Positions 3,440 to 35,174 of a stretch of DNA of 49,064 nt are shown in pieces. The position numbers were made by a program, and so were the translations under genes. Numbering within the stretch: the stretch's first letter is position 1; the number at the start of each line of letters is the position of its first letter. The notes under the pieces are model-generated. The model ran no database searches, had not been told where the DNA came from, and worked only from the letters and a program-made list of their open reading frames with translations. This DNA is from a virus, in IMG/VR virus record IMGVR_UViG_3300006790_000028, positions 1 to 49,064 of that record; one strand, given 5' to 3'.

Positions 3440-6400
3440 ATGGCTGAAGAATTAGAAAATCAGAATATGCAAGATGTTGCTAATGAGCAAATGAATCAAC
3501 AAATGATGCCTCAGCAAGATCAAGCAAATCAACAAGAGCAATCTGTTGAGCAAAAGGTATTTAATCTTGACAATACTCAAAACGAACCTGTAGATCCAAA
3601 TGTAACATCAACACTTGGTGCAGCACAATTAATGAATAATTTAAATACTTCATTTCCAGCTTTACCTGTAGATAATAAATTTGATATACCAGCTCCTCAA
3701 GTACAAGAAAATGTTGTAGGTCTTCCTGATCAACCTCCTGGACCTTATGCTGTTAAAACTCAAGGGGATGCTTTAGTACAGATGCTTCGTGATCAAAGTG
3801 AACGTACAAGTAGAACAGAAAACAAAGATTTTGGAATGTTCTATAATTATGACAATGGTCCTGATGGAAATGCTTTTTATAAAAGGTATGCTGCATTAGT
3901 TGGTACTTCTGATTCTTTGTTTGGAGGAAAAACTTTTGATAATAAAACATTTGATCAAATAGGGTTTTCTCCATTAAGAAATAATGAAGCTAACTTTAAT
4001 GCACATACTACAGGATGGAATGACTGGGGTAGAATGTATAGACATTCATTTCCTGTTTTATTTAAAAGAGGTTTTGTAGATGGACCTAAAAGTATGATAA
4101 AAGCATTTAGTGGAGATTTTAGAGGTGCTGATCTTGCTGATGCAAAAGAGTATGAAGAAGCCGCAGCTATAGGAATGTCAAGTAAAGATGGTGTTGGCCC
4201 ATGGTTTAATAATACTGTAATGAACTTTGGTTATACTGCAGGTATAATTTTGGAAGCCATAGCAGAAGAATTTGCTCTGAGTGCTATGACTCTTGGTTCT
4301 GGAGGACTAGGAGCTGGAGTACAAGCATCAAGAACTGCTCAACTTATAAAAGGTATTGGAAAAGGTCTTGGTAAATTTGGATCTGGTGGTAAAGCTGTGA
4401 AAGATTTATTAAAAGCAACTAGTACCGTACCTGGTGCAAGAGGTTTATTTAATGGAGTTAAAAAAACTGGAAAGTTTTTCAACCCTTTAGAAAATACTAC
4501 AAGTACTATATCTGCTTTATATAAAGGTTCTAATGGTGGAAAGTATGTAACAGGAATAGCAGCGATGTCAAAAACTGCAGGTGCTTTATATAGAGATATG
4601 AGAGCATTGAACATGGCTGTATCTGAGTCTAGATTAGAAGCAGGAATGGTTGAGAACAAAGTGTTTGATAAACTTTATAAAAAGCACTACAAAGATTTTG
4701 GAGTTAGACCTACTGCAAAACAGCAAGCTGATATGAGAGAGCAAGCTAAAGTAGCTTCTTTATCTACATTTAACTCTAATGCTCCTATAATATATTTAAC
4801 TAATAGATTAACTTTTAGAAACGTGGTATCTCCTAAAGGAGGTTTAAGAAATTTTATAAAAAATACAAGAGAAGATATTTATAAAATTGGTGCTACTGCA
4901 GGTGAAAGAAATTTTGGAACTTTAGGTAAAGTTATTTATAACAATAGTAAAAAAGCTTTTGAGTTTGAAGCTAATAACTTAAAAGGTTTAGCTAAAAGTT
5001 GGTGGAAAAATCCAGGTTATAAAACAGCTGCTAAAACATTAGGCTATTTTAAATCTAATTTCTCAGAAGGATTTCAAGAAAACTTTCAAGAAATAGTAGC
5101 ACGGTCTACTGAAAAATATTACACTGAGGCATTTGAAACAAATGTTGTTTCTTCAAGTTTGTATGCTAATGCAGTAAATGACATGACATTTAAAATACAA
5201 ACAGGAAGTGTACCAACAAATGTTTATAGAGATGAAATTAAGAATGAACTTAGTGCTGAAGGATTTAAAACCTTTGCTTCAGGTTTTGCAATGGGTATGT
5301 TCTCAGCACCTTTAAATCAAGCAATACCTTTTTTAAGTACTCAGTATAATAGAATATATCATAAAGATGAATATGTTAAATGGAAAAGAGATAAATTAAA
5401 AATTACTAAAGAGTTAGCTAAAGACTTAAATAATATAAATACAGGAGATCTTTTAAATCAGAGATTAATGAATGTTGGCATGCAAGATATAATAGCTGAC
5501 ATTTATAAAAATGGTAGCAAAAAAGAAGCTCTTGATGCAGAATTAGAAGGTTTTGTTAAAACTGTTTCTGTAATGAGTAAGACAGGAACGTTTGGTGTCT
5601 TCATTGATAAGTTGGAAGAAATGAAAACTCAAACAGATGAGGAATTAATAGATGATGTTGGTTCATCTGATATCAAAGAAGCTCCAAAGTATAGAGAAAG
5701 AATTGATAGAACTATTGCTAGGTTAAAGTCTATTGATGAAAATCTTAAAACTGCTAGAGAAAAATTAGAAAATCCTGTAACAGATGAAATGATAGAAACT
5801 GCTGCTGATAATAAAGAGAAAGAATCTCTTAAAACATTACAATCAGCTTGGAATAAATCTGTAACAAATTTTGTTTTCTTTAATGAAAGTTTTAAGGATA
5901 CATTACAAAGAATGAATTCTATTCAAACCAACTATTTAAAAGGTGATCTTTTATCAGATGTTGATTATGCTGCTTCTAAAGTAATATTTGAACCAACCAA
6001 AAGAATTAAAGGTCAGATAAATATTTTAAAATCAGAAATAGAAATAGAAGAAAATAAAGATGACACTAATAAAACAAAAGTAAGAGACCTTAAAAATCAA
6101 ATTAAATATTTAGAGGAGTATGAAAAAGCTTACACTGAATTTAATAAGTTTTATAATAGAGGTCCACTTGTTGCAGCTGCAGTTAAGTCTTTAAAAGAAT
6201 CTGGAGTAAAAGAACCTACTGAAGAGCAAATTGAAAAAGAAGTAAATAAGAAAGTAGGGAAGATAGATGATGAAAAGAAACAAGTTTTAATTTTAGGAAA
6301 TCTTAAAAAAGCACATGATGAATATATAAAATCTCTTGCAACAGATGCTGCTGTTCCAATGCTTCAAGAAAATTTAGATAAAGCTTTTAATGAACTTCTT

Positions 6401-9400
6401 GATTTCTATAAGCTTGGAGAAGAGTCATCAATGATGGCTAACTATATAAATATTCTACATGATCCAGGAGAGTTTTTAAAACTTGTAACTGAAACTCAAA
6501 AAGCTCAAGAAGAAGCTCAAGCTAAAATGGAAAGTCTTATAAAAAACTTAATTGATAAACAAGTAAAAAATGTAGAGCATAATCAATTATTAAATACTTT
6601 AGCAAGCCATGCTCCTCCACTATTTTTTGCAGAAGGTCAGTTTATTGACTTTTATAATAATGGTATTGAGCCAACTCATTTCTTAGGTATTGATGGTGAA
6701 AGATATGAAAAAGGATCTCCTGAATATGGTTCAGGATTAGCTCTAGTTAAAAAACAATTAGAGCTTAACAAGATTAAATTATCAAATGTAGATACTGCAA
6801 AAAATATTGAGATGACTCCTGAGATGAAAAAGTCTGTAGAAATGATCAAAGCAGTATTTGCTGATTCTATGGATATAATATCAAGCCAAGGAGTCTATAA
6901 GTTCCAAGGTGTTGACTTTGAAAGAGTTTCTAATATAGTTAATAGTATATATGGTGATTATGGTTATCAAGATATAAATAATAGATTATTTGGTGTAGAG
7001 TTTAATGAGAGTTTTAGTGATCCTGTATTTAATGAAAAATTACAAAGACAGGTAAATAGAGTAGATGAGTCTGGTAATGAAATATTTAACTTTAATGAAG
7101 CTACTATAAACTCTTACATAGATAAGCTTGCTGCAGCTAACTTACCTGGATTTAATACAGCAACAATAAATAATTTAAGATCAGAGCTTTTAAGTTTAGC
7201 AGAAGGTAATATTTTAAATTCAAATCAAAAAGAAATTGATAAGCTTACTAAGCTGAAAGAAAATGAACAGTCTCAGTTTAGAAAAGAAAATTTAGATAGA
7301 GAGATTAAAAAATTGCAAGAAGAGTCTACTATAACTGAAGATTTAAATTTAGAACGTGTAAAACAAGTCATAACAGATATAATTCCAAGAATTACTTATG
7401 AGTCTGGTAGACAAAGAGGGGATACTCTGGATGCTTTGGTTAGAGACTTTTTTGATGCTAGTATTACAGATTTTACTTATGACTCAACTAAAATTACTAA
7501 AGAAGCTTTTGAAACATTGTTTGGTGAAAACGGTTTTTTAACTAAATTAAAAGAAGCTGAGTCTAGAGGTGATATTTATGTATTCTCAAAAAATTTAACA
7601 TTAGCAGATAATAATTTATCAGATAAAGATGGTAATTTATTGCCACCTGCTGCAGGTTCTTTAGATTTAGTTATTGTAGATAAGAGTGGTAAAGTTTATA
7701 TTGCTGATTTAAAAACGGGTTCATTAAATAAATGGAATAGTTATCAGGTAGCATCACCGGGAACTAAACAACAATATAATTATAAAAAGTATTTCCAAAA
7801 TAGTATGCAGCAAAGAGCATATGCAAATCTTCTTTACAATAAAAGTAACGGAATGATTGATGCTGAAACTTTAATACTTCCTGTACAAACTAAAGAAGAT
7901 CCTGAAACTGGTAAAGTTACATTAGCTAGCAAACCTGAACAAGGTGACTTAGTAGCAATTCCTGAAATTCTTGAAGAGGAAATGTTTATTTATGCTGATA
8001 AAGATCTTAAATATATAGACGAAGATAATAATCTTTACATGGTTCTTCAGATTGATAAGAAAATACCTAGAATAGATAAAGGTACTGATCAAAAAGAAAT
8101 GAATGATGAAGAGGTTTTAAATGATGCTATAAAAGAACTACAGTCTGAATTAGAAGAATTAAGAAAAGATGAAACTCCTTCACAAAAAAGAATTAATGAA
8201 GTAGAGTTAGAACTTAAGCAAACTAGAAGTATACTTGCAGAATCAAAATTAACACCTGAACAAAAAGCAAAAAGAGACGCTGATGCTGAACGTACTGCTT
8301 ATAACAAAGCTGTAACTAAAAGAAAAAATAAAGCCTTTAAAGAAATAAAAGAAACTAAATTAATTATAAGTGATAGAAATTCTTCAGGTTACAAAACTAC
8401 TTATACAGATAGTAATGGTGAAGTTTATATTTTAAATGAAATCATTCTTCCTCAAAAAGATAAAGAAACCGGAAAATATAAACCTATTACTGAAGCAGAT
8501 AAACAACGTGCTTATAAAAAAATACAAAGAAGAATATTAAATTTAGCTGACTTTGATAAGAGTGATTATAAAAGACAAGCTAAAGTAGACAATACTATTG
8601 ATAATATTACAGGTAGAACTTTTCCATTCTTTGTTGGTAAAGATGCATTAGGAAATCCTTATGAACACAACCTTACAGTACTCAGTGTTTATGTAATGGA
8701 TGATGGTAACTATAGAATAAGAGCTAAAAATAATGTTAACCAGAATGGTTATGATATGGTTGTTACACCTGACGGTGATGTTGTAAAACATTTTAGAGAA
8801 GGTAGATTTAGTCCATCTGAAAATGAAATAATTTTTAGTGCTGATAGTTTTGCTAGACAAAAAACTGAAGCTGAAAAAGAAGAAGAAAAAGATTCTGTTA
8901 CAGATAAGAGAGCTGACATAGAAAAAAGAAGAGAAATAAGTTTAATAGTAGTAGATCAGCTTTCAGAGGAAGAAGTTAAAGAATTAGATAAATACGATGA
9001 AATTGAAGCAGCAATGCCTATAGCTGGAGATTCTGAAACTGGTTATGAAGCTTACTATTACCCAAATATTAATGAAGAAGTTTATTCAACTGATGACCTT
9101 AGTGAAGAAGATAGTAAAGATATAAACAAAGTAAAAGCTTGGGTAAACGCTAAATATGATGCAGAATTAGCTGCTTTAGAAGCTAAAGGCAAACCTGTTG
9201 CTGAACCAGAATCTTATAAAAATGCTGTTGAAGAATACAAAAAAACAGATTTAGGAGGTGGTACAGAAGCACAAATAGCAAAAGATAATCTTATAAAAGA
9301 AGCTAAAACTAAAGAAGGAAAAGCTTTTGTAGAAGATCAAGTTGATAGATTAGAAAAAAATGATGATGGTACTATTACAGTTTATAGAGCTGGAACTATA

Positions 9401-10390: not shown

Positions 10391-10403
10391 TAAATAAAAG
10401 GTA

Positions 10404-13400
10404 ATGATAAAGTGTACACTTGGACAACCACAATTTGATTGGCTTTACGGTTCTACTAAAGCTGCAATAAAAGCTGAATTAGATAATGGTAAGTCTTTTA
10501 ATGTTAGTTCATATATGGATTTCTTATATGAAAGAATTAAAAAGGCTGAAGATGCTGATAGAGCTGCTCAATTTTTAGCAGTTACTCCTGATATATTAGA
10601 CCTTGTTATATCTAGAAATTATGCAGATAATATTGATAATATAACTGGAGTAGAGCAGTTAACTAAGTTAAGAGCTAAGTTCTCTAATCCTGAAAGTAAC
10701 ATTGATAATGTAATTGAATTTTTTGAAAAAGATAATAAAGTTAATTTAGAAATAAATAAACAAAATAAAATCAATACTAAAGGAGCTACAGTAAATAAAG
10801 TTGATACTAAATATAAATCAGGTGGTCCAAGACTTTTAGCTAATACAATTTTATCTGCAACTTTTCCTGAGTATAAATCTGAAGGAGGAAAGTTTGATCC
10901 AGAAACTATTAATCCTGAAAGAAATCTTATAAATAAAACATTAAGTAAGATAGCTGAGTCAATTGATTTACAAAGTTCTCTTTTGCAGTTTCCTGAATAT
11001 CAAGGTAAGAAGATTGCACTTAGAGCAGTTAACATGTCTAGTTTTACTTATGGTGGTACAGCAGAAGGTAGAACTAACTTTAGTAAATTAGATTCTACTA
11101 CACAAGATGAGATCATGAGATCTAGAAAATTATCTAGTGCTGCTATAGCTAAATCTGATGTGACTCAAGTTAACAAAAGAGCTTTAATTGTAGTCATTGA
11201 TGCAGAGACTGGTAAACCTTTGTCATTTAATTTTAATGGAGATATTGTTGATTCTAAAGATATAAATGGAAAATATGTTTTTCAGTTTATGAGAGACATA
11301 CAAAAAGTTGGAAATACTTATACTGTAAAAGATATTTATGGTATAGAAGATAGAGTTGATACATCAAACGTTGACCAAAAAGACCTTGAAGATGCTTATA
11401 AGTTAAAACAAAAAGCTTTAAGAGGTGATGGTGTAGTTCTAAACTTTTTAGGAATGACAGAAGGTGTAGATTCACAACTTACTAAAAAAGAGTTTAGTCT
11501 TAAAGAGCTTATGGATCAAGGACAGATAAAGGAAAAAGACTTAAGTACTTTAAAAGTTTTACCTAAAGATTCTTTTGGTTTTAAAGCTGGATCAACTGTT
11601 ATAAAAATTAACGGTACTTATTATAAGTTAAAAGGAAATAGAGTAACACCTGTAGTAGATCAAATTATAGATGTGCTCTTTTCTAAAAAGGTTGGAAGAA
11701 AACAGAAGATTGAATTCTATTCTCAGTTTATTCCGGAAAATAATAAACATAGATTAACTTATACAGCAAGGAGACATGTTATAACACCACTGAAAAACGG
11801 TAGAATAGCAATACAAATATTTGATAAAGTTGCTAAAACAGAAGAAGGTTGGCCGACTGTTGATGGTAAAACAGAAGGTTTAACACATACTTTCTTTATT
11901 GCTGAAAACGGAGATGTAATTGATAAAACTCCTATGGGTGAAGTTGTAGTTACTAATCCTGAATCAGTAGAAGAACTAAAAAATATATTTAGAGATGCAT
12001 TAAATAATGCTTATGCTCCACCAAAAGGAGGTGCTAGTTTTATGCATTATGATACAGATCTTATAGAGAGACCTAATGACTTTTTAGAATATAGAGATGG
12101 AAAATTCCCATCTAGAAACTATATAGATTTTTTAATGTCTCAACCTTCTATAGTAGAAATACAAGCTTCACAAAAAGGTTTCTTTAATAAGCAAATACTA
12201 TTTGAAGAATCAAATAAAGAAGTTAAAAAGGAAGATCCTAATGCAGATCTTATGGGTCCTAAAAGAACTTTAAGTGCAGAAGAATTAGCATTGATTGACC
12301 TTTCTGAAAATTTAGAAAAGTATAGAAAACTTTTACCAAAACAAACTACAGAAAACTATGCTGTTCTTTCATATATTTTAGATCAAGTAACTGGAAATAG
12401 ATATAGTGAACAACTTGCTAGAGATGTATTTGATCTTTATAATGGGCCTTTACAAAATACTTTTACTAGTGCACAAGTAAAAGAATTTAATAGAAAGTTA
12501 AATAGTTTATTCCCACCTATTACACCTGAGCAAAATAAAAAAGATATTGAAGATAATCAGGATGATATAAGTGGTCAAACATCTTTAGATCTTGATTTAG
12601 ATAGATCTGGAAACTTAACTTCAGATACTATTTCAAAAGAAGATTTAAAGAATGCAAATGACTTTTGGAAGAATAGTAAATTAGGTAAAAAGTTAAGTAA
12701 ATATATTGAGCTTAACCGTGCTGCAAATATTGCAAACTCTGATGCATATGCAAAGTTCATTATTGATGGAGCACAATTATTAAATCCAGATGTCTTAGGT
12801 AGAATAGACATAAATAAAGCTAAGGGAACTTTAGTAGATGTGTATCATGAAGCTTTTCATGGATTTACACAGCTGTTTTTATCTAAACAAGAAAAGATTG
12901 ATTTATATAATGCTGTTTTAAATTATAAAGATAAGTCTGGAAGAAAGCCTTATGAAAATATGAGTGAGTTAGAAATTGAAGAATTTCTTGCAGAAGACTT
13001 CAGAACTTACATGAAAGGTAACTATAAAAGAAAAAGCACTTTAATAAATAGAATTTTTAGAAGAATCTTAAATATTTTAAAAGCTATATTTGGTGTAAAA
13101 AGTAAACCAGTTGTATCTAGCTTAAAGGTTGATGCAATGGCTATACCTGCTGTAAATGAACTTTATACAAAACTTAATTTTTCTGAAAAGTATCCTGGCT
13201 TTTTAAATAAGTATAAAGCTAGTATAGATAATGTTATGTTTTATCAACTAGACCGTGGTGTTACTGCTGTTGATAAATTAAAGAATGAAAAATATAGAAG
13301 AACTGTATTATCTAAACAAGATTCTGACTTTATGTCTAGTAATATAGATTCTATCATATCAGAAGAAATTGATAAGTTTTACGATGTTAAAGTTGGTAAG

Positions 13401-16400: not shown

Positions 16401-19400
16401 AAATTAGGAGGTCCAAATGAATGGACTAGTGAACAAGAAAACTTATATCAGCAAGTAATTAAAGGTGAAGATACTGATCCATTAAAAGTAAAGGAAGCAT
16501 TTCCGGTTTATAAACTGCATTATTATGGTCCCTTAATGAACAGTGAAATTAATACAACTCTTATGTATAAATTTGCTGTTGCACCTATCATACCTACAAT
16601 TGCTAAATCAGATACAGAATTGTATAAATTGCAGAAGTACATGATTGAAAATAATTTTCAAATGATTACAATGAGTACTGGTTCAAAAGTATCTACTTTA
16701 ACAATGAATGGTGAATTTGATGATATATATCTACCTTCTGATAATGATTATTTTAAAGATAAATATATTAATCCAAATGCTAAATTAGCAAATAATAAGA
16801 TTCATATTAGATATTTAAAAAATGTTACTAAGGTAGCATCTAAATTAAAAAAGACTATAACTAAACCAACTCAAGAAAGAATAATGACCATTAGTGGTTT
16901 ATTCAAAGAAGGTGAAATTAATGATAAACATAGAGAATTTTATAATGAATATAAGAATGCTGTTGATGCTTTAACAGATGCCTATGAACAAGAATTTTTA
17001 GATGAGATTGGTTATGAATTTAAAGATGGTAAATATGTCGGTAAGCTAGATAACTTAATAAGAGTTATAAGAGATGAGCTTGAATTAAAAGATGTACCTG
17101 TACAATTACGAGCTGCACTAGATGTAGATCTTAATGAACAACTTAGTAAAGATTTTTCATTACATCCTGAAGCAGGGTTAGTTGAAAAAATTGTAATTAA
17201 TAGAATAGCAAAAGCACTTGTAAGACAAAAAGTAAAAGGAGAAAAAGACATACAAGTTCCAAGTACTTTTTATAATGGACTATGGAGTTCTGAATATGAA
17301 CAGGATCCAAAGATTATTAATGATCCTAAAGAAATAAAAAAGTTTTTAGGTAGTAATAATTTACCTAGTTATAGAAGAGGTGATATATTAAAAGGTAAAA
17401 ACGGTAAGATATTAAAAGATAAAGATGGATATCCTCTAAGAGAAAAAACAAAGTTAGCTAAAATTGCTGTTTCTATTAACCATGGTGATTTTATTAATTT
17501 ATTAAACCTTGAATACAAAGGTAAAAAGATTGGAACAAGACAAAACTTAAATAAACTTATAAAAGATGATAAGTTTTTAGAAGAGCATGGTGATAAAGTT
17601 AGAATAACAGGACCTAGGATTCCTGTAGATGATTTGAATCTAAAGGATGGTTTTGAAGTGTGGCACTTTTTAGATGCTTCTTCTGCTAATACTGTAGTAG
17701 TTCCTACAGAAATTGTTGCAAAAGAAGGTTCTGACTTTGATGTTGATGCATTATTTTTATCTTTTCCTACTATAAATAAAGATGGATCTTTTCCAATTAA
17801 AGTTGACTTTAAGAAAGAGTATGCAAAACTAAAGGCAGAAAATAAAAGTACTAAAGCATTAATTGAAAACCAAATAGGTTATGCTCAAAATGAATTAATT
17901 AGAACTGAGCTAAATATATTAACATTAGCAGACAACTATGCAAATCTTACAAAACCAAATGCAACTTATCTAATATCTGATGAAGCTGAAGGTTTTTATA
18001 AAGAGTATGCTCAAGAGTTTGATCCTTTAGCTAATAAGAATACTACAGAAAGATATGTTAGTCCTACAACAGTAACTAATATTAATTATGATGTTAATAA
18101 GTTTGCTCAGTTATTAGGAGGTGCTAAACCTTTAGGGATGCTTGCTAAGAAAAAGAAACAACATGTTCTATATAAATATGCAGGTATGGCAATGCCTGGA
18201 CAAATTCTTATTGATGATGATGTTTCATATAATTATGTACCTAACTTTAAGTTTGAATATCAAAAAACATCTGATGGTAGAATATCTTTTTCTCACGAGA
18301 ATTCTGTAACAAATCAAGATATTTCAACTACATTTTCTCATAGCTTTCAAGGAGTTCTTGATAGAGGAAATAACCCATTCCCTGCATATGTGAACTTTAC
18401 AAAAGATTCACTTCCTGTATTTAATAGAATGTTAGAATCAGGAATAGATAAAAGCATTGCTTTAGCACTTATAAACCAACCAATAATTAAAAGGTTTCTT
18501 AATGATTTAAATGAAACTAAAGGTATAGTGGCTGTATTAAATGGTCAGCAAAGCACTAAAGGTGAAGTTTTAGAAAACATTTTATTAGGTCTTTCAGATA
18601 ATTTAAGAGCTATTGTATATAATGCAGTGGATGTTGCTAATGAAAACAGACTTGATAAAATATTAGATAGCAATGAGGTATCTGCACTAGATGGTAAGTT
18701 TTCTGTAAAATATCTTGATGGTTACACTGAACAAACCGAATGGAAAACTTATAAAACTCTAAAGGGTTTAAAAACTTTCATTAAGAAAAATTCAGATAAT
18801 AGTTATGAACTTGTTATTAATGAAAGTAAACTAGGAAATAAAACTAGAGTTTATCAAGAAAAAGGTTTAAGATTTTTTGCTTGGTCACCTAATGAGTTGG
18901 CAGATGTTTTATGGAAAGATTCATATGGTAGTAATGCTCCTACTGTAGAAGAGTTACAAAATAATATTTCTAAACTTGAACCAATTGCTTCTCAAAAATA
19001 TTTGATGGATCAAGCTGCTTTATTACTTTACTTTTTACAAATTCAAAACTTGTCTTCAGATTTTGAACAGTTTGAAATTGACTTTAATCCAGATACTAGT
19101 ATTTTAGATACTATGGCTTCATTAGATATTTATGAAAGAAATTTAAATAGATTACTGAAGGATCCTTTTAGTAAATTAGATACAGCTGGTGCTAATAGAT
19201 TAATGAAAGAGTCAGTTTTATCTTCAATGAATAAGTATGAGATTTATAAAGATATAGTAATTCCTTTATTTCCATTAAGATTAAATTCTAGAATAAACTT
19301 CTTCTTAGTAAATTCTCTTTTGGATAAAAAATTTAAGAAAAGAGTTACTGATGTATATGGTACAAGAAAAGAAGATGTAGATAGATTTATTTCAAACTTT

Positions 19401-21992
19401 AATAATGCTATAGTAGATTACATTTATCAAAATACAATGTCAGGAATGCCTGATACTGTAGGATTACCTCAAACTATTCCTAATGAAAATCCTTATAACC
19501 TACCTGTTGAGTCTGCAGAATTAAGTTATGAAAAACCTGTTGAATTTACAGATAGTAAAATTAAAGTAGACTTTAAAAAGATTGATGCAATTTTTAAAAC
19601 TAAAAGATATCTATCAAATAATAAAAGCAGTACATCTTTTGCTGAATTAGGTTTGGATACATTTAAACAGAATGAAGATCCTTTTACAAATAAAGATTCT
19701 TTTGTAAAATATTTAATTGAGAAAGAATCTTTGTATAATCAATATGATGTAAAGGATTTTAAAAATAAAACTGAATATGAACAATTTATTTCTAAAAGAG
19801 CTTTATTAAATAACTTTAATCATAAATACATAATGGGTAGAACTAAGTATTCTTATACTCAAGATGTTGTAAAGATGATACAGTCTAATAAATTACTTAT
19901 GGAAAGATATCCTGTATTAAAACAATTGAATAGTTCATTCTTTATGAAAGGTGTTGGATATAATCTATTAGAATTAAGAGATAAAGGTATAATTGATTCA
20001 AGTACTTCAAACTTATACAGCAAACAGTTAACTCAACTTGGAGATGTGACAGTTAAGAAAGTAAAAGATAAAGCTAAAAATAAAGAGATTAGTGATATAT
20101 TTAAAAACTTTTTCTTAATAACCCTATATCAGCATGGTATTGGAAGAGGTATTATAAACTTTCCACAGATACAGAATCCAGAAACTTTTATGGAAATTAT
20201 GAGTAATACTACTAATTCTTTCTTAAATAAGACTCTTGAATCTAAAGGTAGTGGTGAGATTTTCAACTTTATTACCAATAGACTTTTAGCTCCTAATGTT
20301 TATAAGAACTATGTTCAAAGTGCTAATGCATTTAATGGTACAAATATAGAAACTGACTCAATTCCTACAGAGGATTCTCAGTTACAAAAGTTAGAAGAAG
20401 ATATTACACTCATAGAGTTTGGTATTTCTATAGGGGCTGCTACTGAAGCTGAGTTAAATGCAGCTAGGGAAAGACTTAATAAGTATTTGGATCAAAATAA
20501 ACCTAAACGTCCTAATAACTTAAATGTTAAAAAAGGTAGTGGAGTTAAAATTATATCTGAACCTTATGGAGTGGCAGTTATTGAAACAAATCCAACAAAA
20601 ACATTACAGTCTAAGTTTTTAGATCTTATTAAACCTCAAATAAAAGCTCAAGCTATAAAAGAGAATAAAGGTAGAAATGCTAACTTGATGTTCCAATTTG
20701 GATTAAGATGGGCTAGAGTAGAACTTTCTGCTCAACCTTTAGAAATTAATTCTCCATCATATGATTCTAATGCTAGAAAGAAAGAGATTGCAGCACTAGA
20801 AAAATCTAATAAAGATAAAACTGATAAGTTTGTGTATGCATATCATCAACTAGATCAGAATGGAACTCTATTACCGGAACTATCAGAACTACAACCTATA
20901 ATAGATGATATACAAAAATCTTTAGGAATAGATATGTCTAATTATGATGCAATGATTGGTAACATATATTTACCAGGACAAGCTGTAGCTACACATAAAG
21001 ATGTTACTGAAAGTAAATCTGCAGAAAATTATCCTGTAATAGTATATACACTTGGTGCAGGAAATGCAATAAACATTTATGAAAATGTTAAAGATCCAGG
21101 TAAAGCATCATTCGCATCTGATAAAAAAGTTACTATACCAACTAAAGCAGGTACTATATATACATTTGGTTTAGAAGGAAAAGGTAGATTTGAATTAGCA
21201 CATGATACACCAAGAGCTATACAGAAAGGTGAAGCATTAGAACCTATCACTCTTCCTGATGGTAAAGTAGTAAAAGATTATACTATTACACTTACTTTTA
21301 GAAGAGCAGCTGATTTAGATCCAGGAATGCCTAAGACACCTAAATCATTAATATCTACTCCAACTGAAGAAGTTGAAGAAGTAGATATACAACCTATTGA
21401 TATATCATCTAATAGTAGAGGTCTTGGAGGTGCTCTTACTAACCCTACAGAATTATCTAAATCAAAAGGTAATATTGCTATGTCATATCCTGTTGAAGTT
21501 AGAGGTAAAAAATATCAAGATGCTGAGGCAGCATACCAAGCTTTAAAAGATAAAAAAGAGAGTACTACTAAACCTTCTAAAGATAAAAGTAGTAACTTTG
21601 CATTGATGACAGAAATATTAACTAATAAACTAGATACTTATCCAAATCTATTTTCAGAGATTCAAAACAGAGGAGGTCTAGCATTTCTTAATGTATCAGT
21701 TCATCAACCTACTAATAAGAACACTGTATGGGAAAGTGGAGGTCAGAATTGGTTTATAGAATCTTTGGCTGAAGCCTTTGTTGCAACTCAAGCAACATAT
21801 AACTTGCAATCTATACAAGGTAGTTTATTTATTGATCCTTCAATATCTAATTATTATAATAGCTTAAGTAAGAAAGAAAAAGAAGATCTTGAATTAAGAT
21901 ATGGAAATGAACAGTTTGCTCAAGCTCAATGGGATAGTGCTCCTGCAAGTTTCACAATGGAACAATTTATTGAAATATTAAAATGTAAGTAA
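10404..21992 (+). CDS. P3: 3862-aa multidomain virion RNA polymerase of crAss-like phage
   Basis: ATG 10404 is 13 bases after the P2 stop. The core signature is D2444-F-D-V-D2448, preceded by a GPRIP segment about 45 residues upstream. This matches the DxDxD metal-binding loop of the second double-psi beta-barrel in crAss-like/YonO-type single-chain RNA polymerases, which transcribe phage early genes from within the injected virion cargo. Other regions, in order: a zincin-type H815-E-A-F-H819 with a downstream acidic helix (residues 857-866); an AlkB-like 2OG-Fe(II) oxygenase with H3531-K-D3533, H3600 and R3633/R3634; and a C-terminal domain at about 3670-3800 with EAAYQALK. Only two cysteines occur, at residues 4 and 3861. 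The RNA polymerase call is strong. The other activities are inferred from motifs. Confidence 0.85.
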   Translation: MIKCTLGQPQFDWLYGSTKAAIKAELDNGKSFNVSSYMDFLYERIKKAEDADRAAQFLAVTPDILDLVISRNYADNIDNITGVEQLTKLRAKFSNPESNIDNVIEFFEKDNKVNLEINKQNKINTKGATVNKVDTKYKSGGPRLLANTILSATFPEYKSEGGKFDPETINPERNLINKTLSKIAESIDLQSSLLQFPEYQGKKIALRAVNMSSFTYGGTAEGRTNFSKLDSTTQDEIMRSRKLSSAAIAKSDVTQVNKRALIVVIDAETGKPLSFNFNGDIVDSKDINGKYVFQFMRDIQKVGNTYTVKDIYGIEDRVDTSNVDQKDLEDAYKLKQKALRGDGVVLNFLGMTEGVDSQLTKKEFSLKELMDQGQIKEKDLSTLKVLPKDSFGFKAGSTVIKINGTYYKLKGNRVTPVVDQIIDVLFSKKVGRKQKIEFYSQFIPENNKHRLTYTARRHVITPLKNGRIAIQIFDKVAKTEEGWPTVDGKTEGLTHTFFIAENGDVIDKTPMGEVVVTNPESVEELKNIFRDALNNAYAPPKGGASFMHYDTDLIERPNDFLEYRDGKFPSRNYIDFLMSQPSIVEIQASQKGFFNKQILFEESNKEVKKEDPNADLMGPKRTLSAEELALIDLSENLEKYRKLLPKQTTENYAVLSYILDQVTGNRYSEQLARDVFDLYNGPLQNTFTSAQVKEFNRKLNSLFPPITPEQNKKDIEDNQDDISGQTSLDLDLDRSGNLTSDTISKEDLKNANDFWKNSKLGKKLSKYIELNRAANIANSDAYAKFIIDGAQLLNPDVLGRIDINKAKGTLVDVYHEAFHGFTQLFLSKQEKIDLYNAVLNYKDKSGRKPYENMSELEIEEFLAEDFRTYMKGNYKRKSTLINRIFRRILNILKAIFGVKSKPVVSSLKVDAMAIPAVNELYTKLNFSEKYPGFLNKYKASIDNVMFYQLDRGVTAVDKLKNEKYRRTVLSKQDSDFMSSNIDSIISEEIDKFYDVKVGKSTNSELIAKYKGANISALLKPGNRAQIYKEVLKRLKDTLAELTDKHSTSENTISKIEDFEGIETAAVATLVVNEDDSTKDPNKYFFLSSQIDSFDNLTPNMKRGDRIKGETWQGVKIVGDYYVHNTIKDGSNRKAEIIVISELEDAEIQFDNYIKAGAKKYERVDVKEATEPELTIEDENVLNNMRLLETSIKNFGDPFYESKGGKPTGLIKYHLQNSDFEFGKVKYVVEEEVNEKGDELGESDSPVSEGLESMDPEYYDNKKSLYDLADSEVIYLLKGLFKVDSNGKPIKNSLGFNEREDFRSTWNLVSKSIGGIQDRQKAFDILKEEAELFPALKQLVDYKLPGPEGIKNTYAFDISSSFWHTFARPSAKFWQVSVIEGEPVLQESSPAAAKVLTNFKSYFKSFPNPYVKDQTLNLEKLVKSFSNNNGEINSKDFKSFLNALGIILDNTKKINTAIDNSDVQINKLFDLVKDIETISQKETLSKNEKILVSRFTQDPITTLQTLEWSKFMYLLPSFKTVQILAPVSTINLFANLQSKYGFDSPVENIILPDGNKAFAVTNHSSVSSMVDGINNLDELDNAWADTNSHMSFLDPSKNFFTNRSKLIASIFDPVTGKKIKGRELNFLAFAGLEVVDEMVAQGINTPDLVPIDKFYLAYNTMMQKGIGEFIRHAEKRMAFGIAPNEKSQVILDNGLKSGTDGLWISKDLFQNELEVSEGELMAIEGYLLDYIGVEFDRISFFKKNPEVLKNTIGFNRDVRGTKAGLTFGLTDDLLTKDIKKTLTGLAETLDENEDIVEYIKADSKLYDEISKSITNYFNQVAEETYKNYVSKIKSIPQDMVSVKAFVYNDYINKFEMFNLIHGDAVQFNHSKEQATKRAPGSTSNGDSFVYDEYAQDFINQVFQGENVNTYAKELSKELDDETIQDFNFDGTLNTGVIKDPKRKTVYMDELVEGWTEAYEKAGLTPQEIKYRLEKDRDPYEGIEEADGAAFATLDAYRMLKKLGGPNEWTSEQENLYQQVIKGEDTDPLKVKEAFPVYKLHYYGPLMNSEINTTLMYKFAVAPIIPTIAKSDTELYKLQKYMIENNFQMITMSTGSKVSTLTMNGEFDDIYLPSDNDYFKDKYINPNAKLANNKIHIRYLKNVTKVASKLKKTITKPTQERIMTISGLFKEGEINDKHREFYNEYKNAVDALTDAYEQEFLDEIGYEFKDGKYVGKLDNLIRVIRDELELKDVPVQLRAALDVDLNEQLSKDFSLHPEAGLVEKIVINRIAKALVRQKVKGEKDIQVPSTFYNGLWSSEYEQDPKIINDPKEIKKFLGSNNLPSYRRGDILKGKNGKILKDKDGYPLREKTKLAKIAVSINHGDFINLLNLEYKGKKIGTRQNLNKLIKDDKFLEEHGDKVRITGPRIPVDDLNLKDGFEVWHFLDASSANTVVVPTEIVAKEGSDFDVDALFLSFPTINKDGSFPIKVDFKKEYAKLKAENKSTKALIENQIGYAQNELIRTELNILTLADNYANLTKPNATYLISDEAEGFYKEYAQEFDPLANKNTTERYVSPTTVTNINYDVNKFAQLLGGAKPLGMLAKKKKQHVLYKYAGMAMPGQILIDDDVSYNYVPNFKFEYQKTSDGRISFSHENSVTNQDISTTFSHSFQGVLDRGNNPFPAYVNFTKDSLPVFNRMLESGIDKSIALALINQPIIKRFLNDLNETKGIVAVLNGQQSTKGEVLENILLGLSDNLRAIVYNAVDVANENRLDKILDSNEVSALDGKFSVKYLDGYTEQTEWKTYKTLKGLKTFIKKNSDNSYELVINESKLGNKTRVYQEKGLRFFAWSPNELADVLWKDSYGSNAPTVEELQNNISKLEPIASQKYLMDQAALLLYFLQIQNLSSDFEQFEIDFNPDTSILDTMASLDIYERNLNRLLKDPFSKLDTAGANRLMKESVLSSMNKYEIYKDIVIPLFPLRLNSRINFFLVNSLLDKKFKKRVTDVYGTRKEDVDRFISNFNNAIVDYIYQNTMSGMPDTVGLPQTIPNENPYNLPVESAELSYEKPVEFTDSKIKVDFKKIDAIFKTKRYLSNNKSSTSFAELGLDTFKQNEDPFTNKDSFVKYLIEKESLYNQYDVKDFKNKTEYEQFISKRALLNNFNHKYIMGRTKYSYTQDVVKMIQSNKLLMERYPVLKQLNSSFFMKGVGYNLLELRDKGIIDSSTSNLYSKQLTQLGDVTVKKVKDKAKNKEISDIFKNFFLITLYQHGIGRGIINFPQIQNPETFMEIMSNTTNSFLNKTLESKGSGEIFNFITNRLLAPNVYKNYVQSANAFNGTNIETDSIPTEDSQLQKLEEDITLIEFGISIGAATEAELNAARERLNKYLDQNKPKRPNNLNVKKGSGVKIISEPYGVAVIETNPTKTLQSKFLDLIKPQIKAQAIKENKGRNANLMFQFGLRWARVELSAQPLEINSPSYDSNARKKEIAALEKSNKDKTDKFVYAYHQLDQNGTLLPELSELQPIIDDIQKSLGIDMSNYDAMIGNIYLPGQAVATHKDVTESKSAENYPVIVYTLGAGNAINIYENVKDPGKASFASDKKVTIPTKAGTIYTFGLEGKGRFELAHDTPRAIQKGEALEPITLPDGKVVKDYTITLTFRRAADLDPGMPKTPKSLISTPTEEVEEVDIQPIDISSNSRGLGGALTNPTELSKSKGNIAMSYPVEVRGKKYQDAEAAYQALKDKKESTTKPSKDKSSNFALMTEILTNKLDTYPNLFSEIQNRGGLAFLNVSVHQPTNKNTVWESGGQNWFIESLAEAFVATQATYNLQSIQGSLFIDPSISNYYNSLSKKEKEDLELRYGNEQFAQAQWDSAPASFTMEQFIEILKCK

Positions 21993-22864
21993 TGGCTTGT
22001 ATAAATAAATCAAATAAAACATATCAAAATATAGAGAAACGTTATGGTGTATTCTTAGCTGAAGTCTATACAAGAAGTCATCCTAAGAATCTTTCTATGA
22101 AAGCTAATGATGATTTTTATATTCCTTCATTAAGTGAGGTATCTAAAATTGTTAAAGCTGAAGGTATTGATACTATAGAAAACTTTGATGCAAATATGAA
22201 ACAAAATCCTTATATGACTGAAGAGTTTATAAGGGATTCATTAAAAGGAGTTATTAGAAAGCATAGAGGTGAATACTATGTAATTAAAGGTATAGATGTA
22301 GGACCTTTGCAAACAGCAATCTCTATAAAAGAAATCTTTGAAAAAAATTATAGAGTAATGAATACTCTACAATCAAAGTATCCTCAAATAATATCTTTAA
22401 GACAAGGACGTAAGCCAAGAAGTTTTAAAGTTATTATAACTCCTCAGCAAAAACCTGAAGAGGTTGAAGAAAGAACTATAGAACCTAGCTTAAGAGCATA
22501 TGCTAGATTAGTAGAGCTTAATGATGGAGCACAACCCAAGATGTTTCAGAGTGGTCCGCATAGATGGCAAAGAGTCGGAAATAATCTATATACTCTTATA
22601 GATGAAGACACTGGAGCTGTGTTTATGCCAAATGTTAATTTAGTAACAGGGATGCAAGAAGTTGAATCAAATACAACTCCTGTAAATCCTGAATATAAAA
22701 AGTATGTACTAAACCAAGTTAAACCACTTAATACATCAGCTATGCAAGTATACTTAGCTGAAAGGGGTTATAATATGAATTTAATTATAAAAAACTTAGA
22801 ATCTGCAGAAACTCAAGAAGAACTTCTTAGAGTATATAAAGATTTTGTTAAAACTGTATGTTGA
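21992..22864 (+). CDS. P4: 290-aa conserved late protein of unknown function
   Basis: Its ATG overlaps the P3 stop by one base (TAATG), so translation is probably coupled. The product starts MACINKSNKTY and ends KTVC, and its only two cysteines are residue 3 and the last residue. The sequence is basic and mixed alpha/beta, with no recognised catalytic motif, signal peptide or membrane segment. Its size and place between the RNA polymerase gene and P5 match a small accessory or cargo protein of the polymerase block. It may be a split-off piece of the neighbouring giant proteins, since crAss-like phages differ in how this region is divided into genes. No function is proposed. Confidence 0.75.
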   Translation: MACINKSNKTYQNIEKRYGVFLAEVYTRSHPKNLSMKANDDFYIPSLSEVSKIVKAEGIDTIENFDANMKQNPYMTEEFIRDSLKGVIRKHRGEYYVIKGIDVGPLQTAISIKEIFEKNYRVMNTLQSKYPQIISLRQGRKPRSFKVIITPQQKPEEVEERTIEPSLRAYARLVELNDGAQPKMFQSGPHRWQRVGNNLYTLIDEDTGAVFMPNVNLVTGMQEVESNTTPVNPEYKKYVLNQVKPLNTSAMQVYLAERGYNMNLIIKNLESAETQEELLRVYKDFVKTVC

Positions 22865-22865
22865 T

Positions 22866-25800
22866 ATGGCAACTTGTCCTAATAAAAATAGTAAAGAATG
22901 GAAAGAGATTCTTTCAGAAGCACAAAACAATGAACAAATTGCAATGGATCTTTGGATTAAAAAAGGATTCAATCAGCAAGAGGATTTAAACGAAGATGCT
23001 AAAGAGGGAGATCTAACTAATGAGGAAATAGAAGCACTGCAAGAGCTTGATCCTATGCAAAGATTAGCTCAAAAGACTAAAGTATATCTTCAAAAAAGAA
23101 TTAATATTCTTTCAAATCAGAAAGTTAAAGACGTAGATAGAAAAACAAATAGGCTCAAAGAACTTTTACAAAACATGAAAGCTGTAGAGGAAGTTGAGTC
23201 AATAAATCTATTTATCGAAGAAGCATATAAAATGTCTCAACAGTTAAAGCAAAGAACAAAACAATTTTTGATTGATGTAAAGAAAGAGGATGTTGATAGA
23301 AAAGAACTTATAGAAGCTTTAACTAATATAAACGAGTATGCAAACAGTTATAATATATTAGATGAGATATCTAGTGAAGATCTTTTTGATTTCTTTCAGT
23401 TAGACGAAGACGCTGAACAAAAAATGTTTGAAGAAGATGAAGAAGGGAATGTGAAATTAAGTATGAAAGAAAAACTAGAAAGAGCAGTAACTACTAGAAA
23501 TATCATACGACAAAGAATGCTGGATGAAGGCATACCTTTATTAGCAGAGTTTTTATTAGATGCAAGATCAAAATACAGTGCTGAAGGTTTAGAAAAAGAA
23601 ATTGCAGCAAAACGAGCAGAGATTGAAAAAATAAAGAATGATGTAACTAATGAAAAAAGAAGAGATAGACTTATTCAAAAAGTAGAAAGACAAATAGATC
23701 TTTTAAGCACGAAGGCTCAAGATAAAGATGGTATGATTAAGATACTAAAAGAAGCTGCTATAGAAGAAGGAGTCTTAGACTTTTTAGTAGGGCCCTTAAT
23801 TAGTTCACCTGATAGTGCTGTTGCATTATTTGCTAAAGCAATTAAAGATCAGTTAGAGTTTGCTAGATTAAAAGATATTAATATTAAAAGAGAATTGACT
23901 GACGAATATTTAGAATACAGAAGTCAAGCTCCGGGATCAACTGACAATCCTCAAAAATTTAATGAAGGTTTATATACTGTAGTAGAAGTACCTGTATATG
24001 AAACGGTGCAATCAAAAAAGAATCCTAACTATTATTATAAGACGGTTAAGAAAGATGAGGCTGGTAATATAGTATATAAGAAAGAGGTACACTTTGTTGA
24101 AAGAATAGATAGAAAGAAATTTAAAGCTGCACAAGCCCAATGGTGGGCTGAAAACCCTAAGCCGCATGCAGATAAAATACCTGAGCAATTAACATCATCA
24201 GAAAAACAAGATGTTAGAAATTGGGAAAATAAAAAGAAGCAATGGTATAAAGAAAACATGACAGAGAAATCTGCAGAAGCTATTAAAGCTATTGATGATA
24301 AGATGAAGAATGAAAGAGATGCAGAAATCATTAGTAAAAAACAATACGCAAACTGGTTTAACAATGAAAGGTTTAAAGAGATACAAGAACCTTCTTCAAA
24401 GTATATAAGTGAGAAGTGGTTAGCAATGTATAACAAAGATGGTAAGCCTAAGAATGCAATGGGAGAATATCACAAAGCACTTACCGATACTTACTACGGT
24501 GCTCAAGAGTTATTACCTGAATCACAACGAACAGGTTCTAGAATACCATCTATTCCTAAGAAAGATTTAGAAAGGTTATTAGATGAAGGAATTAGTAATC
24601 TAGTAAAGACTAACATTAAAGAAACTATTTCTATACAAGCTTATGATACAGAATACGGTGGTAACATTGCAACTTTGGGAGGGGAAGCTGTGAAGTTCTT
24701 ACCTATATTCTTTACACAAAATATTGATGAATCAGATATAAGCTATGATTTATTAAGTTCTGTTTTATTATTTAGTCAAATGGCAAATAAGTATGACGCA
24801 CTAAATGAAGTTAATGGTGAGATATCTTTAATGAAACAAGTTATATCTAAAAGAGCTAATCCGAAATTTGATGAGGTATCTGGTAAGAAACAATTTGATG
24901 TAGTGGCTAAGAGATTTGGCCTTGAAGAATTTATTGTTAAGAGTGGAGAAAGTTTTACTAAAAAACATTTAGATGCATTTATTGATATGATTGTATATGG
25001 AGAGATGCAAAAGAAAGAAGTTCTCTTGGGTTTACAGTTTGATAAAATAACTAACACAATAACCGGATTTTCTGCACTAACATCTATTGCAGCTGATTTA
25101 CTTAAAGGTGTGGCTAATAACTTACAAGGTAATATACAATTAATTATAGAAGCATCGGGAGCAGAATTCTTTAGTGCTGCTGACTTAGCAAAATCTAAAG
25201 TTCAGTTCATGGAGAATGTTGCGGGAACATTAGGAGACTTTGGTAAACCTAGTCCTACAAGTTGGATGGGTAGACTTAATGAGTTATATGACCCTATACA
25301 AGGAGACTTTACTGATAAGTATGGAAGAATTGTTTCTGCAAGTGTAGCAAATAAACTATTTAGAACTAATACATTATTCTTTAATCAGTACTTTGGGGAA
25401 TATGAAATACAAGTTTCAGGAATGCTAGCATTAATGAATGCTACAGAAGTTAGAGATAAGGAGAATGGTACTAATATAACTATGTATGAAGCACATAAGA
25501 AATATGGTCCTGATTCAGGTGATTTAAATGGGAAAGTTGAGTGGATTACTCAGGATAAAGATGGGAATAATGTTTATGAGGATTTTAATGAAAAGCATAG
25601 GAGATCTTTTCAAGATAGAGTTCATGCATTAAGTAAAAAAATGCATGGTATATACAATACCTTTGATAAAGGTACTGCACAAAAGCAATCTTTGGGCCGT
25701 CTAGCTTTGATGTATAGAAAGCATATGTATCCTGGATTTAAAAGAAGATGGAAACAGTATTCTTGGGATGAGGAACTTGGTTCAGGGACTGAGGGTCACT

Positions 25801-26327
25801 ATAGAACCTTTTGGAATACTTTTGTTAGAGATTTAAGAACTTATAAATTAAATGTTGCAAAAGAATGGAGTACATATACTCCTATGCAAAAAGCAAATAT
25901 CAGAAGAACTCTTTCTGAGATAGGTGTGTTCTTAACAATTGTAGGTTTGATAGGTATTCTTTCAGCTATGGCTTCTGATGATGGAGAGGATAAAGAAAAG
26001 TATAAAGACAATTATCTTTATAACTTTCTTCTGTATGAAATGGTTAGGATGAGATCAGAGACAGCTCAGTATATTTCTCCTAAAGATATGTGGAGAACTA
26101 TAAAATCACCTTCTGCAGCTTTAAGTACCTTAAGTAGATTCATAAGATTTACAAATCAGATACTACCTTGGAATATTACAGAAGAGTATAAAAGAAAGTC
26201 AGGTATTTGGGAGAAAGGAGATAACAAAGCATGGGCATACTTTATTAAATTAATTGGTCTTCCTGGTTATAATATTAAACCACAAGATGCAGTTAAAGTT
26301 TATGAGAACTTATCTAGAGCAATTTAA
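22866..26327 (+). CDS. P5: 1153-aa putative cargo protein with a C-terminal membrane segment
   Basis: I chose ATG 22866, one base after the P4 stop, over an upstream TTG at 22845. This gives MATCPNKNSKEWK, which resembles the P4 N-terminus. Residues about 50-290 are strongly charged and coiled-coil-prone. The middle is mixed. Residues about 1017-1040 form one clear hydrophobic segment, GVFLTIVGLIGILSAMA, followed by an acidic stretch and aromatic, basic helices. The only cysteine is residue 4. This is the last gene of the rightward block. A membrane segment in a late cargo-type protein suits a role in ejection or in making a path through the host envelope, but that is inference. Confidence 0.75.
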   Translation: MATCPNKNSKEWKEILSEAQNNEQIAMDLWIKKGFNQQEDLNEDAKEGDLTNEEIEALQELDPMQRLAQKTKVYLQKRINILSNQKVKDVDRKTNRLKELLQNMKAVEEVESINLFIEEAYKMSQQLKQRTKQFLIDVKKEDVDRKELIEALTNINEYANSYNILDEISSEDLFDFFQLDEDAEQKMFEEDEEGNVKLSMKEKLERAVTTRNIIRQRMLDEGIPLLAEFLLDARSKYSAEGLEKEIAAKRAEIEKIKNDVTNEKRRDRLIQKVERQIDLLSTKAQDKDGMIKILKEAAIEEGVLDFLVGPLISSPDSAVALFAKAIKDQLEFARLKDINIKRELTDEYLEYRSQAPGSTDNPQKFNEGLYTVVEVPVYETVQSKKNPNYYYKTVKKDEAGNIVYKKEVHFVERIDRKKFKAAQAQWWAENPKPHADKIPEQLTSSEKQDVRNWENKKKQWYKENMTEKSAEAIKAIDDKMKNERDAEIISKKQYANWFNNERFKEIQEPSSKYISEKWLAMYNKDGKPKNAMGEYHKALTDTYYGAQELLPESQRTGSRIPSIPKKDLERLLDEGISNLVKTNIKETISIQAYDTEYGGNIATLGGEAVKFLPIFFTQNIDESDISYDLLSSVLLFSQMANKYDALNEVNGEISLMKQVISKRANPKFDEVSGKKQFDVVAKRFGLEEFIVKSGESFTKKHLDAFIDMIVYGEMQKKEVLLGLQFDKITNTITGFSALTSIAADLLKGVANNLQGNIQLIIEASGAEFFSAADLAKSKVQFMENVAGTLGDFGKPSPTSWMGRLNELYDPIQGDFTDKYGRIVSASVANKLFRTNTLFFNQYFGEYEIQVSGMLALMNATEVRDKENGTNITMYEAHKKYGPDSGDLNGKVEWITQDKDGNNVYEDFNEKHRRSFQDRVHALSKKMHGIYNTFDKGTAQKQSLGRLALMYRKHMYPGFKRRWKQYSWDEELGSGTEGHYRTFWNTFVRDLRTYKLNVAKEWSTYTPMQKANIRRTLSEIGVFLTIVGLIGILSAMASDDGEDKEKYKDNYLYNFLLYEMVRMRSETAQYISPKDMWRTIKSPSAALSTLSRFIRFTNQILPWNITEEYKRKSGIWEKGDNKAWAYFIKLIGLPGYNIKPQDAVKVYENLSRAI

Positions 26328-34001: not shown

Positions 34002-35174
34002 TTACTTCACAGCCATTGCCACCACCTTTTGATTTAACATTAGTTTTGAGAACTTAGCTTTATTACCATTTATGATTTCCTTAACCATATAGTATCTCAA
34101 ATCATCAGTAAAGGCTTTACTATCTGTAGTTAATTGAACAAGTCTGTCAATCATCTTTTGAGGTATAGAACCTTTGCTAGCTTTAATTAAAGAATAGTTA
34201 ATAATTCTAGTTGTAATTATACTAGATATATCAGCTCTGAATTCATCTCCTGTTCCAATACAAGAGTTTAAGCTTCCACTTACATATTCCCAATTATCAT
34301 TTTCTAGAATTTGCTGAGGACTAATAATCTTATCAAGTTGATTATTAATAAACATAGTAAACATGCTACTAAATTCATCTCCTACAGATCCTTCACCAAT
34401 CATTTGAATTAGAGGTAATTGCTCTTCAAACTTTTCAATAGAACTGATAGAGTTAAAGAATGTAGTTACACTTCTAGGATTAACATCCTTACTAACTAGT
34501 TCAGGATGCATTAATAAGAAGTTAATACATCTACCATCAATCTTTACAGTCTCAGCCCACTTAGCCCATACATCTGCATCAAACTTTACTGCAGTAGAAA
34601 TAAATCTAGTTCTCTGAGCTGTATCTAATGCTGTAACATTATAGTCACCATTGTCTGGATTAGTAGTAAGAAGTACATGCCAGTTCTTTGGAAGACTCCA
34701 AGAAATATACTCTTGTCTGTCAATCAATTCCATAGTAGCTTGCATGAATCTATGGTCAGCTCTAGTATAATCATCTAATACTAAGAACCCACCTTCACCT
34801 TTACCTTGAATCCACTCAGGTGCAGCATGAGACATTCTCTTGTCTACAACTTTGTAACCTTTCTTCATAGCAACATCTACTTGAGCTTCATTTATCCAAG
34901 TAGTTTTACCATCTTTATTTTGAATTTGGAATTCTTTAACAGGAAAACCAACAAGATCACCTAACTCCTCTATCTGTGATAAGTTAATCTTAACTACATC
35001 CATCTCAAGTTCTTCTCCTAATTGCATAATAGCAGAAGTTTTACCAAGACCAGCATCACCTTCAATATTTACAGCAACAGGAACTTTTCCTTCTGCTTGA
35101 ATGTGCTGATTGTTTTTTACCATGTGCTTTAAAAAGTCTTTTAATTCATTAACGTTTAATTGTGTCTCACTCAT
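34002..35174 (-). CDS. MoxR-like AAA+ ATPase (390 aa)
   Basis: Walker A is GDAGLGKT (residues 39-46). Walker B is FLVLDDYTRAD at about residues 131-141. A sensor region reads LLTTNPDNGDYNVTALDTAQRTRF. This order is typical of MoxR-type AAA+ ATPases, which remodel or load metals into partner proteins together with VWA-domain proteins. The next gene upstream in the same transcript is a VWA protein, the usual genetic partner. The target is unknown. A terminator-like hairpin follows the stop, so this gene closes a sub-operon. Confidence 0.85.
   Translation of the reverse strand: MSETQLNVNELKDFLKHMVKNNQHIQAEGKVPVAVNIEGDAGLGKTSAIMQLGEELEMDVVKINLSQIEELGDLVGFPVKEFQIQNKDGKTTWINEAQVDVAMKKGYKVVDKRMSHAAPEWIQGKGEGGFLVLDDYTRADHRFMQATMELIDRQEYISWSLPKNWHVLLTTNPDNGDYNVTALDTAQRTRFISTAVKFDADVWAKWAETVKIDGRCINFLLMHPELVSKDVNPRSVTTFFNSISSIEKFEEQLPLIQMIGEGSVGDEFSSMFTMFINNQLDKIISPQQILENDNWEYVSGSLNSCIGTGDEFRADISSIITTRIINYSLIKASKGSIPQKMIDRLVQLTTDSKAFTDDLRYYMVKEIINGNKAKFSKLMLNQKVVAMAVK

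Follow-up and report, generated by a model that had tools for sequence, protein, structure and literature searches.

A viral DNA of 49,064 nucleotides (IMG/VR record IMGVR_UViG_3300006790_000028, positions 1 to 49,064; this whole stretch is the window below) carries at 190-26327, on the + strand, a block of five genes, P1 to P5, whose products hold six cysteines in 8,701 translated residues. All six lie within four residues of the end of an open reading frame (ORF) and are paired over the P2/P3, P3/P4 and P4/P5 junctions. We propose that P2, P3 (the virion RNA polymerase, RNAP), P4 and P5 are separate virion proteins that would be coupled head-to-tail via these single cysteines at their termini, disulfides being the most likely form, and we put the probability of this reading at about 0.7. 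The C-terminus of P2 would be linked to the N-terminus of RNAP, the C-terminus of RNAP to the N-terminus of P4, and the C-terminus of P4 to the N-terminus of P5, producing one chain of ~7,600 residues with the N-to-C order found in the polyproteins of relatives. The position rule behind this proposal is conserved throughout crass-like phages: each junction-facing terminus has one cysteine and the outer ends have none, and the pair is absent where neighbours are fused and present where a protein has truly been split.

The initial annotation had described six cysteines at ORF ends, three junctions and a cysteine-free P1, and the translations bear this out exactly. P2 (3440..10390, 2316 amino acids), the first member of the proposed chain, has a sole cysteine, its last residue (Cys2316, codon 10385..10387). 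P3 (10404..21992, 3862 amino acids) has only Cys4 (10413..10415), the proposed partner of P2 Cys2316, and the penultimate Cys3861 (21984..21986, within KCK before the stop). P4 (21992..22864, 290 amino acids), an adaptor between RNAP and P5, has only Cys3 (21998..22000) and its last residue, Cys290 (22859..22861), and P5 (22866..26327, 1153 amino acids), the last chain member, has only Cys4 (22875..22877). P1 (190..3432, 1080 amino acids), of the cargo C2/gp46-like family, would stand outside the coupled chain; it has no cysteine, and members of its family have 1 cysteine in 19,649 residues altogether. Normal cysteine usage, claimed earlier for the leftward genes, holds for most other genes of the window. 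At the 6.9 per 1000 residues of other ORFs in these loci, ~60 cysteines are expected in the block and 6 are observed, and a hand calculation gives p ~9e-15 for six random cysteines all falling in the 40 residues that lie within four of an ORF end.

The window belongs to a 113 kb IMG/VR contig (3300025093_000011). By sequence comparison, the P1-P5 block is the virion-RNAP cargo of a crassvirus. P3 matches a crass-type RNAP core hidden Markov model (HMM) at residues 1956-3013, with a GSDFDVD motif whose catalytic DFDVD occupies residues 2444-2448 (17733..17747), and this DFDxD RNAP is accompanied by a gp47/g067-type protein, P2, and an adjoining gp49/g065-type protein, P5. In tblastn searches P5 matches the RNAP subunit or RNAP-associated proteins of crAss001 and phi14:2 (E down to 3e-55), in agreement with its HMM, and the P2 HMM, which has the window P2 among its seeds, covers crAss001, phi14:2, DAC15 and window members. 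P1 falls by HMM into the families represented by crAss001 gp46 and phi14:2 g068. Searches of P1-P5 against Pfam and PHROGs returned nothing useful. The known cargo of Crassvirales (crAss001 gp47/gp49/gp50; phi14:2 g065-g067) thus has the same families, presumed role and terminal cysteines as the window, which differs in its extra link, P4. P4 is, as judged from its homologues, a lineage-specific link: orthologues occur in IMG/VR loci L002, L003, L010, L205, L207 and L208, with both cysteines invariant, and tblastn against phages gave no match. Mass spectrometry places gp45, gp46, gp47, gp49 and gp50 in the crAss001 virion, with masses of 262.5 kDa for gp47, 276.9 kDa for gp50 and 154.5 kDa for gp49 (PMC10172136), and by homology the window proteins, here metagenomic phage genes alone, would share that location.

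The pattern was followed across 227 related loci, including the cultured phages crAss001 (host Bacteroides intestinalis), phi14:2 (host Cellulophaga baltica) and DAC15. RNAP loci were gathered from IMG/VR, GTDB genomes and GenBank phages, a sample of metagenomic contigs in which the first ATG was taken as the ORF start and P2 is poorly conserved. Domains were called by HMMs blind to cysteine, a second batch being scored with HMMs built on the first; L186 and L191, odd contigs from metagenome-assembled genomes (MAGs) with many cysteines, were left out, and the final dereplicated set comprised 195 loci. The nearest relatives, at 37-54% protein identity (L002, L003, L010 and L011 for the P3 C-terminus, P4 and P5; L007 for the P2 C-terminus and P3 N-terminus), retain every terminal cysteine and gain none, with P3 Cys4 conserved in L007 and Cys3861 kept as KCKL or KCL in the other four. 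In crAss001 the cysteines are gp47 Cys2339 of 2341, gp49 Cys5, and RNAP Cys5 and Cys2404 of 2412 plus an internal Cys1334; in phi14:2 they are g067 Cys1797 (the last residue), RNAP Cys3 and Cys2179 of 2180, and g065 Cys3. DAC15 and cr128_1 also retain the terminal residues, together with a few internal cysteines in RNAP and, in DAC15, one in P5. Over the full set, the N-terminal cysteine is present in 177/177 complete P5 homologues and a P2 C-terminal cysteine lies within 10 residues of the end in 38/41, and P1, P2 N-termini and P5 C-termini are outer ends without cysteine. Because the pattern is kept at 37-54% identity and throughout crass-like phages, chance and a peculiarity of this single genome can both be dismissed.

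Could the rule arise in the nucleic acid? Most of the gene junctions are tight or overlapping, and start/stop overlap or translational coupling might place TGT or TGC there. We regard such a nucleotide-level effect as hardly credible. P2 lies on the opposite strand to RNAP in crAss001, cr128_1 and DAC15 and still has its C-terminal cysteine, and the effect is therefore on the protein and not on an mRNA junction. Furthermore, the codon does not keep its exact residue position from one relative to another (MATC/MAATC, KCK/KCKL), and unrelated genes that have come to lie between RNAP and P5 are without terminal cysteines.

Gene boundaries vary from lineage to lineage, and in some loci neighbouring proteins are fused. 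In the dereplicated set, RNAP has an N-terminal cysteine in 61/61 cases with a separate P2 but in 0/33 P2-RNAP fusions (Fisher 4e-26), and a C-terminal cysteine in 155/156 cases with a separate P5, the exception being a broken ORF, but in 0/7 RNAP-P5 fusions (Fisher 1.5e-11), these fusions being few. A single 5,005-residue protein combining P2, RNAP and P5 (L097) has zero cysteines. Scoring terminal cysteines across crass-like phages, fused genes included, as the initial annotation had advised, thus found them conserved when the proteins are separate and absent when they are fused. In 60 loci of the full set the RNAP N-terminus is complete but P2 is not callable by HMM; there, an RNAP with the N-terminal cysteine and a checkable upstream neighbour is always preceded by an ORF ending in cysteine (33/33), and an RNAP lacking it is preceded by an ORF that also lacks a cysteine end (23/23). 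Seeming exceptions in L176 and L200 stem from broken ORFs, the downstream fragment having the cysteine end in each, and the one unmatched N-terminus of the full set belongs to a partial contig (L183). On a quick RNAP-core tree, the P2 state and the N-terminal cysteine each change 6 times, in matching fashion, as do the P5 state and the C-terminal cysteine, 7 times each. All independent pairs agree; well-supported branches alone leave 4 (P2) and 6 (P5) of them, with sign-test values of 0.125 and 0.03. Every case in the phylogenetic test thus points the same way, but the test is of modest size.

Several candidate readings of these loci were dropped. L244, L246 and L254, classed as fusions by a length rule, each have an upstream ORF ending in cysteine. 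L038, L081, L093 and L217 had appeared fused when a single in-frame TAG was read as Gln; the TAG stands between a cysteine-ended and a cysteine-started protein and is a true stop between separate proteins. A fused ancestor of the window clade, seen in an early tree, does not appear in the larger one. Some loci come from cellular genomes. In the isolate Chitinophaga sp. YR573, which has crass-type RNAP cargo genes (L188, NZ_FOJF01000001.1, a 4.8 Mb contig) RNAP and P5 form one 5,485-residue protein without cysteine, and a 229 kb isolate contig of Spirosoma oryzae DSM 28354 (L199) has crass-type RNAP cargo genes; both are candidate integrated crass-like prophages. The excluded L186, from a Candidatus Aenigmatarchaeota MAG (CP070801.1), has RNAP- and P5-like sequence in one cysteine-rich ORF, a candidate contamination or decayed element.

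The converse of fusion is a new split, and two true splits inside RNAP have gained a cysteine pair, as read from their translations. In L061 the break in the core falls at profile position 323, between a piece ending NNKCGE and one starting MAKC; in L052 it falls near 450-486, where the first piece has IENCKGG and then an extension, and the second starts MGC. Breaks by intron or frameshift (L146, L051, L176 and L200) have no such pair. In L146 the RNAP gene is interrupted in the middle of its catalytic GSD/FDVD motif, in the manner of an intron, by an ORF at 11314-12257 that is probably an intron-borne endonuclease. Nineteen adaptor ORFs of 89-1,214 amino acids, in several groups including P4, have exactly two cysteines, a single one at either end. 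Every one of them is located between RNAP and P5, two in series in L273, and genes merely interrupting the cluster (L025, L028, L029, L146 and L156) have ordinary cysteine content.

The splits and adaptors bear directly on whether the terminal residues are simply what is left after cysteine was purged from injected proteins, whether as harmless leftovers or as marks of breaks in an ancestral polyprotein. Depletion is certainly strong: in loci using translation table 11, internal cysteines number 0.17 per 1000 residues in P2, RNAP and P5 against 6.3 in other ORFs. In TAG-recoded loci, a few of which are misassigned, the values are 2.7 against 11.5. These relatives do have internal cysteines but keep the terminal ones, so the refuting case named in the initial annotation, orthologues with scattered internal cysteines and no terminal ones, was looked for and did not turn up. 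Removal of cysteine elsewhere, suggested in the initial annotation, is general in injected proteins, since the N4 virion RNAP (3,500 amino acids), gp51 and gp52 and T7 gp15 and gp16 have zero; the terminal couplers are therefore the special feature here. Purging would not spare one cysteine at exactly these termini in 177/177 P5 proteins and 61/61 RNAPs, and the same N4 and T7 proteins keep no terminal cysteine. The idea of polyprotein remnants, also raised earlier, finds no support because it gives no reason for a pair at the new splits of L052 and L061, in unrelated adaptors, or with the opposite-strand P2 of crAss001, cr128_1 and DAC15. We consider this explanation in all its forms very improbable. 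Junction-specific processing of a cleaved polyprotein, another earlier suggestion, was rejected: there is no shared cleavage motif, at their junction RNAP-P5 fusions have neither a cysteine nor a CPN-like motif, and the cysteines stand at termini as it is.

Head-to-tail coupling is favoured because the cysteine pair swaps with a peptide bond, faces the neighbouring protein, is absent from the outer ends and occurs at both ends of adaptors, and the linkage foreseen in the initial annotation is strongly supported by the absence of the pair at fusions, its presence at true breaks and its extension by two-cysteine adaptors. Bonds between like proteins (P2-P2, P5-P5 and so on) or to portal or tail rings would suit a cargo that is probably multicopy around the 12-fold portal, and tail proteins of crAss001 do form disulfides (PMC10172136). 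Such homotypic pairing would leave unexplained the rule of upstream C-terminus and downstream N-terminus, the cysteine-free outer ends, the two-ended adaptors and the joint loss of both halves on fusion, and we judge it improbable.

As to the chemistry of the link, a disulfide is the simplest bond because there is one cysteine per side. The earlier alternative of metal linkage fails in its ordinary form: a second cysteine lies within 40 residues in only 2/289 N-termini and 0/238 C-termini, short of the two or more ligands per side of an ordinary zinc site or zinc finger, although an oligomeric metal site may still fit. Histidine occurs within 25 residues in 56/289 N-termini and 25/238 C-termini. 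The terminal cysteine might instead be a docking residue, the C-terminal tail of one protein binding the next N-terminus through a shared metal, a thioester or packing without a disulfide. Fusion would make docking needless and would equally replace it, an N-terminal context such as C[PI]NKN....W is common to P5, adaptors and some RNAPs, and a helix in the P4 model ends just before its C-terminal cysteine. On the other side, the cysteine stays constant while its surroundings vary widely (MACK, MSCT and MAKKC at N-termini; CK, CVPF and CNS at C-termini), and one cysteine per side with few histidines provides too few ligands for docking by an ordinary zinc site. We therefore view docking as unlikely, if worth keeping in mind.

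Two recurring contexts deserve mention in their own right. The N-terminal context C[PI]N(K/I)(N/S)....W/Y is found in P4 and P5 (window 21992 and 22866) and in L050, L091 and L275, in P5, adaptors and some RNAPs, and is possibly an exchangeable docking motif. A C(V)PF or CVVPF tail ending at the stop recurs on P2, adaptor and RNAP alike in L026, L030, L161, L166 and L174, which suggests a shared C-terminal coupler motif. Furthermore, the Leptolyngbya phage Lbo-JY46 (L016, 8771-21677) has a P2 homologue ending in cysteine followed by a P5-domain protein with Cys4, and no recognisable RNAP core was found in it; coupling may therefore be older or broader than RNAP. Epsilon-group crass-like phages are reported to lack the RNAP block (PMC7886860).

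In the disulfide-coupled chain that we favour, the cargo would be packaged, and later ejected, as a single ordered train holding its members in equal numbers, would traverse the tail channel and the periplasm partly unfolded, and would come apart into separate proteins once the bonds are broken in the reducing cytoplasm of the host. Internal cysteines would be excluded so that the terminal thiols pair only among themselves. The occurrence of disulfides in the virion, their role in ejection, release by reduction and the timing of these steps are deduced from gene sequences, and disulfides would fit both partly unfolded ejection through a narrow tail, as proposed for the crAss001 cargo (PMC10172136), and release in a reducing cytoplasm. 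Disulfides also join tail proteins of the crAss001 virion, at the tail and portal vertex (PMC10172136), and show that such bonds occur in a crassvirus particle; those join folded structural subunits, whereas the proposed ones would serially link the termini of cargo enzymes. Several points weigh against the coupled chain. No bond has been observed, and in the crAss001 cryo-electron microscopy maps the RNAP cargo is unresolved and cysteine goes unmentioned for it (PMC10172136). The disulfides would have to arise while the virion is assembled or later, and for some lineages the host is anaerobic; the preference for head-to-tail over homotypic pairing has the pattern as its sole basis. The three P2 homologues outside the 38/41 have their single cysteine at -18, -24 and -32, and the exact position is therefore not fixed. 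Finally, the AlphaFold model of P4 is of middling confidence (predicted local distance difference test score, pLDDT, 78; predicted template modelling score, pTM, 0.44) and matched no known fold in the PDB or BFVD.

Phage N4 (Schitoviridae) has a giant injected RNAP with co-injected proteins, and podoviral internal proteins of the T7 gp14/gp15/gp16 type are ejected in order. N4 gp50-gp52 resemble the window in having a giant injected RNAP without internal cysteine, but they have no terminal cysteine, their RNAP consists of one chain and a coupler is not in evidence. T7 gp15 and gp16 are likewise cysteine-depleted but have no paired terminal cysteines, and the one cysteine of gp14, at position 2, is partnerless in gp15 and gp16. 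To our knowledge, a set of terminal couplers freely exchanged with peptide fusion in the course of evolution has no counterpart, although the proteins themselves belong to known families. The crassvirus and ejection-protein papers covered, a set without most subscription papers and without the RNAP structure paper of Drobysheva et al. (2020), make no mention of cysteine in the cargo, and literature searches turned up no account of coupled cargo.

More broadly, we lean towards the view that the early-transcription machinery of crass-like phages is injected as a reducible polyprotein strung together by disulfides, in which cysteine pairs may act as interchangeable couplers for split, fused and inserted links. 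In crassviruses, the most abundant viruses of the human gut, and likewise in N4-like phages, enzymes thousands of residues long have to get through the tail in order and in correct proportion and must afterwards work apart. The simple sequence rule addresses this by predicting which cargo proteins are physically joined, in what order and where, and the coupling question is testable in cultured crAss001, phi14:2 and DAC15. The cysteine pair also shows where proteins truly begin and end in phage genomes that are recoded or broken, and could help to annotate recoded crassviruses.

Elsewhere in the window, a gene at 35185-36396 encodes a DUF2201 putative metallopeptidase with a VWA-like domain (PF13203/PF09967), and the gene adjoining it, at 34002-35174, has weak AAA-ATPase matches. 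The protein encoded at 44951-45793 matches spore photoproduct lyase (PF20903, 1.3e-18), which is unexpected in a phage.

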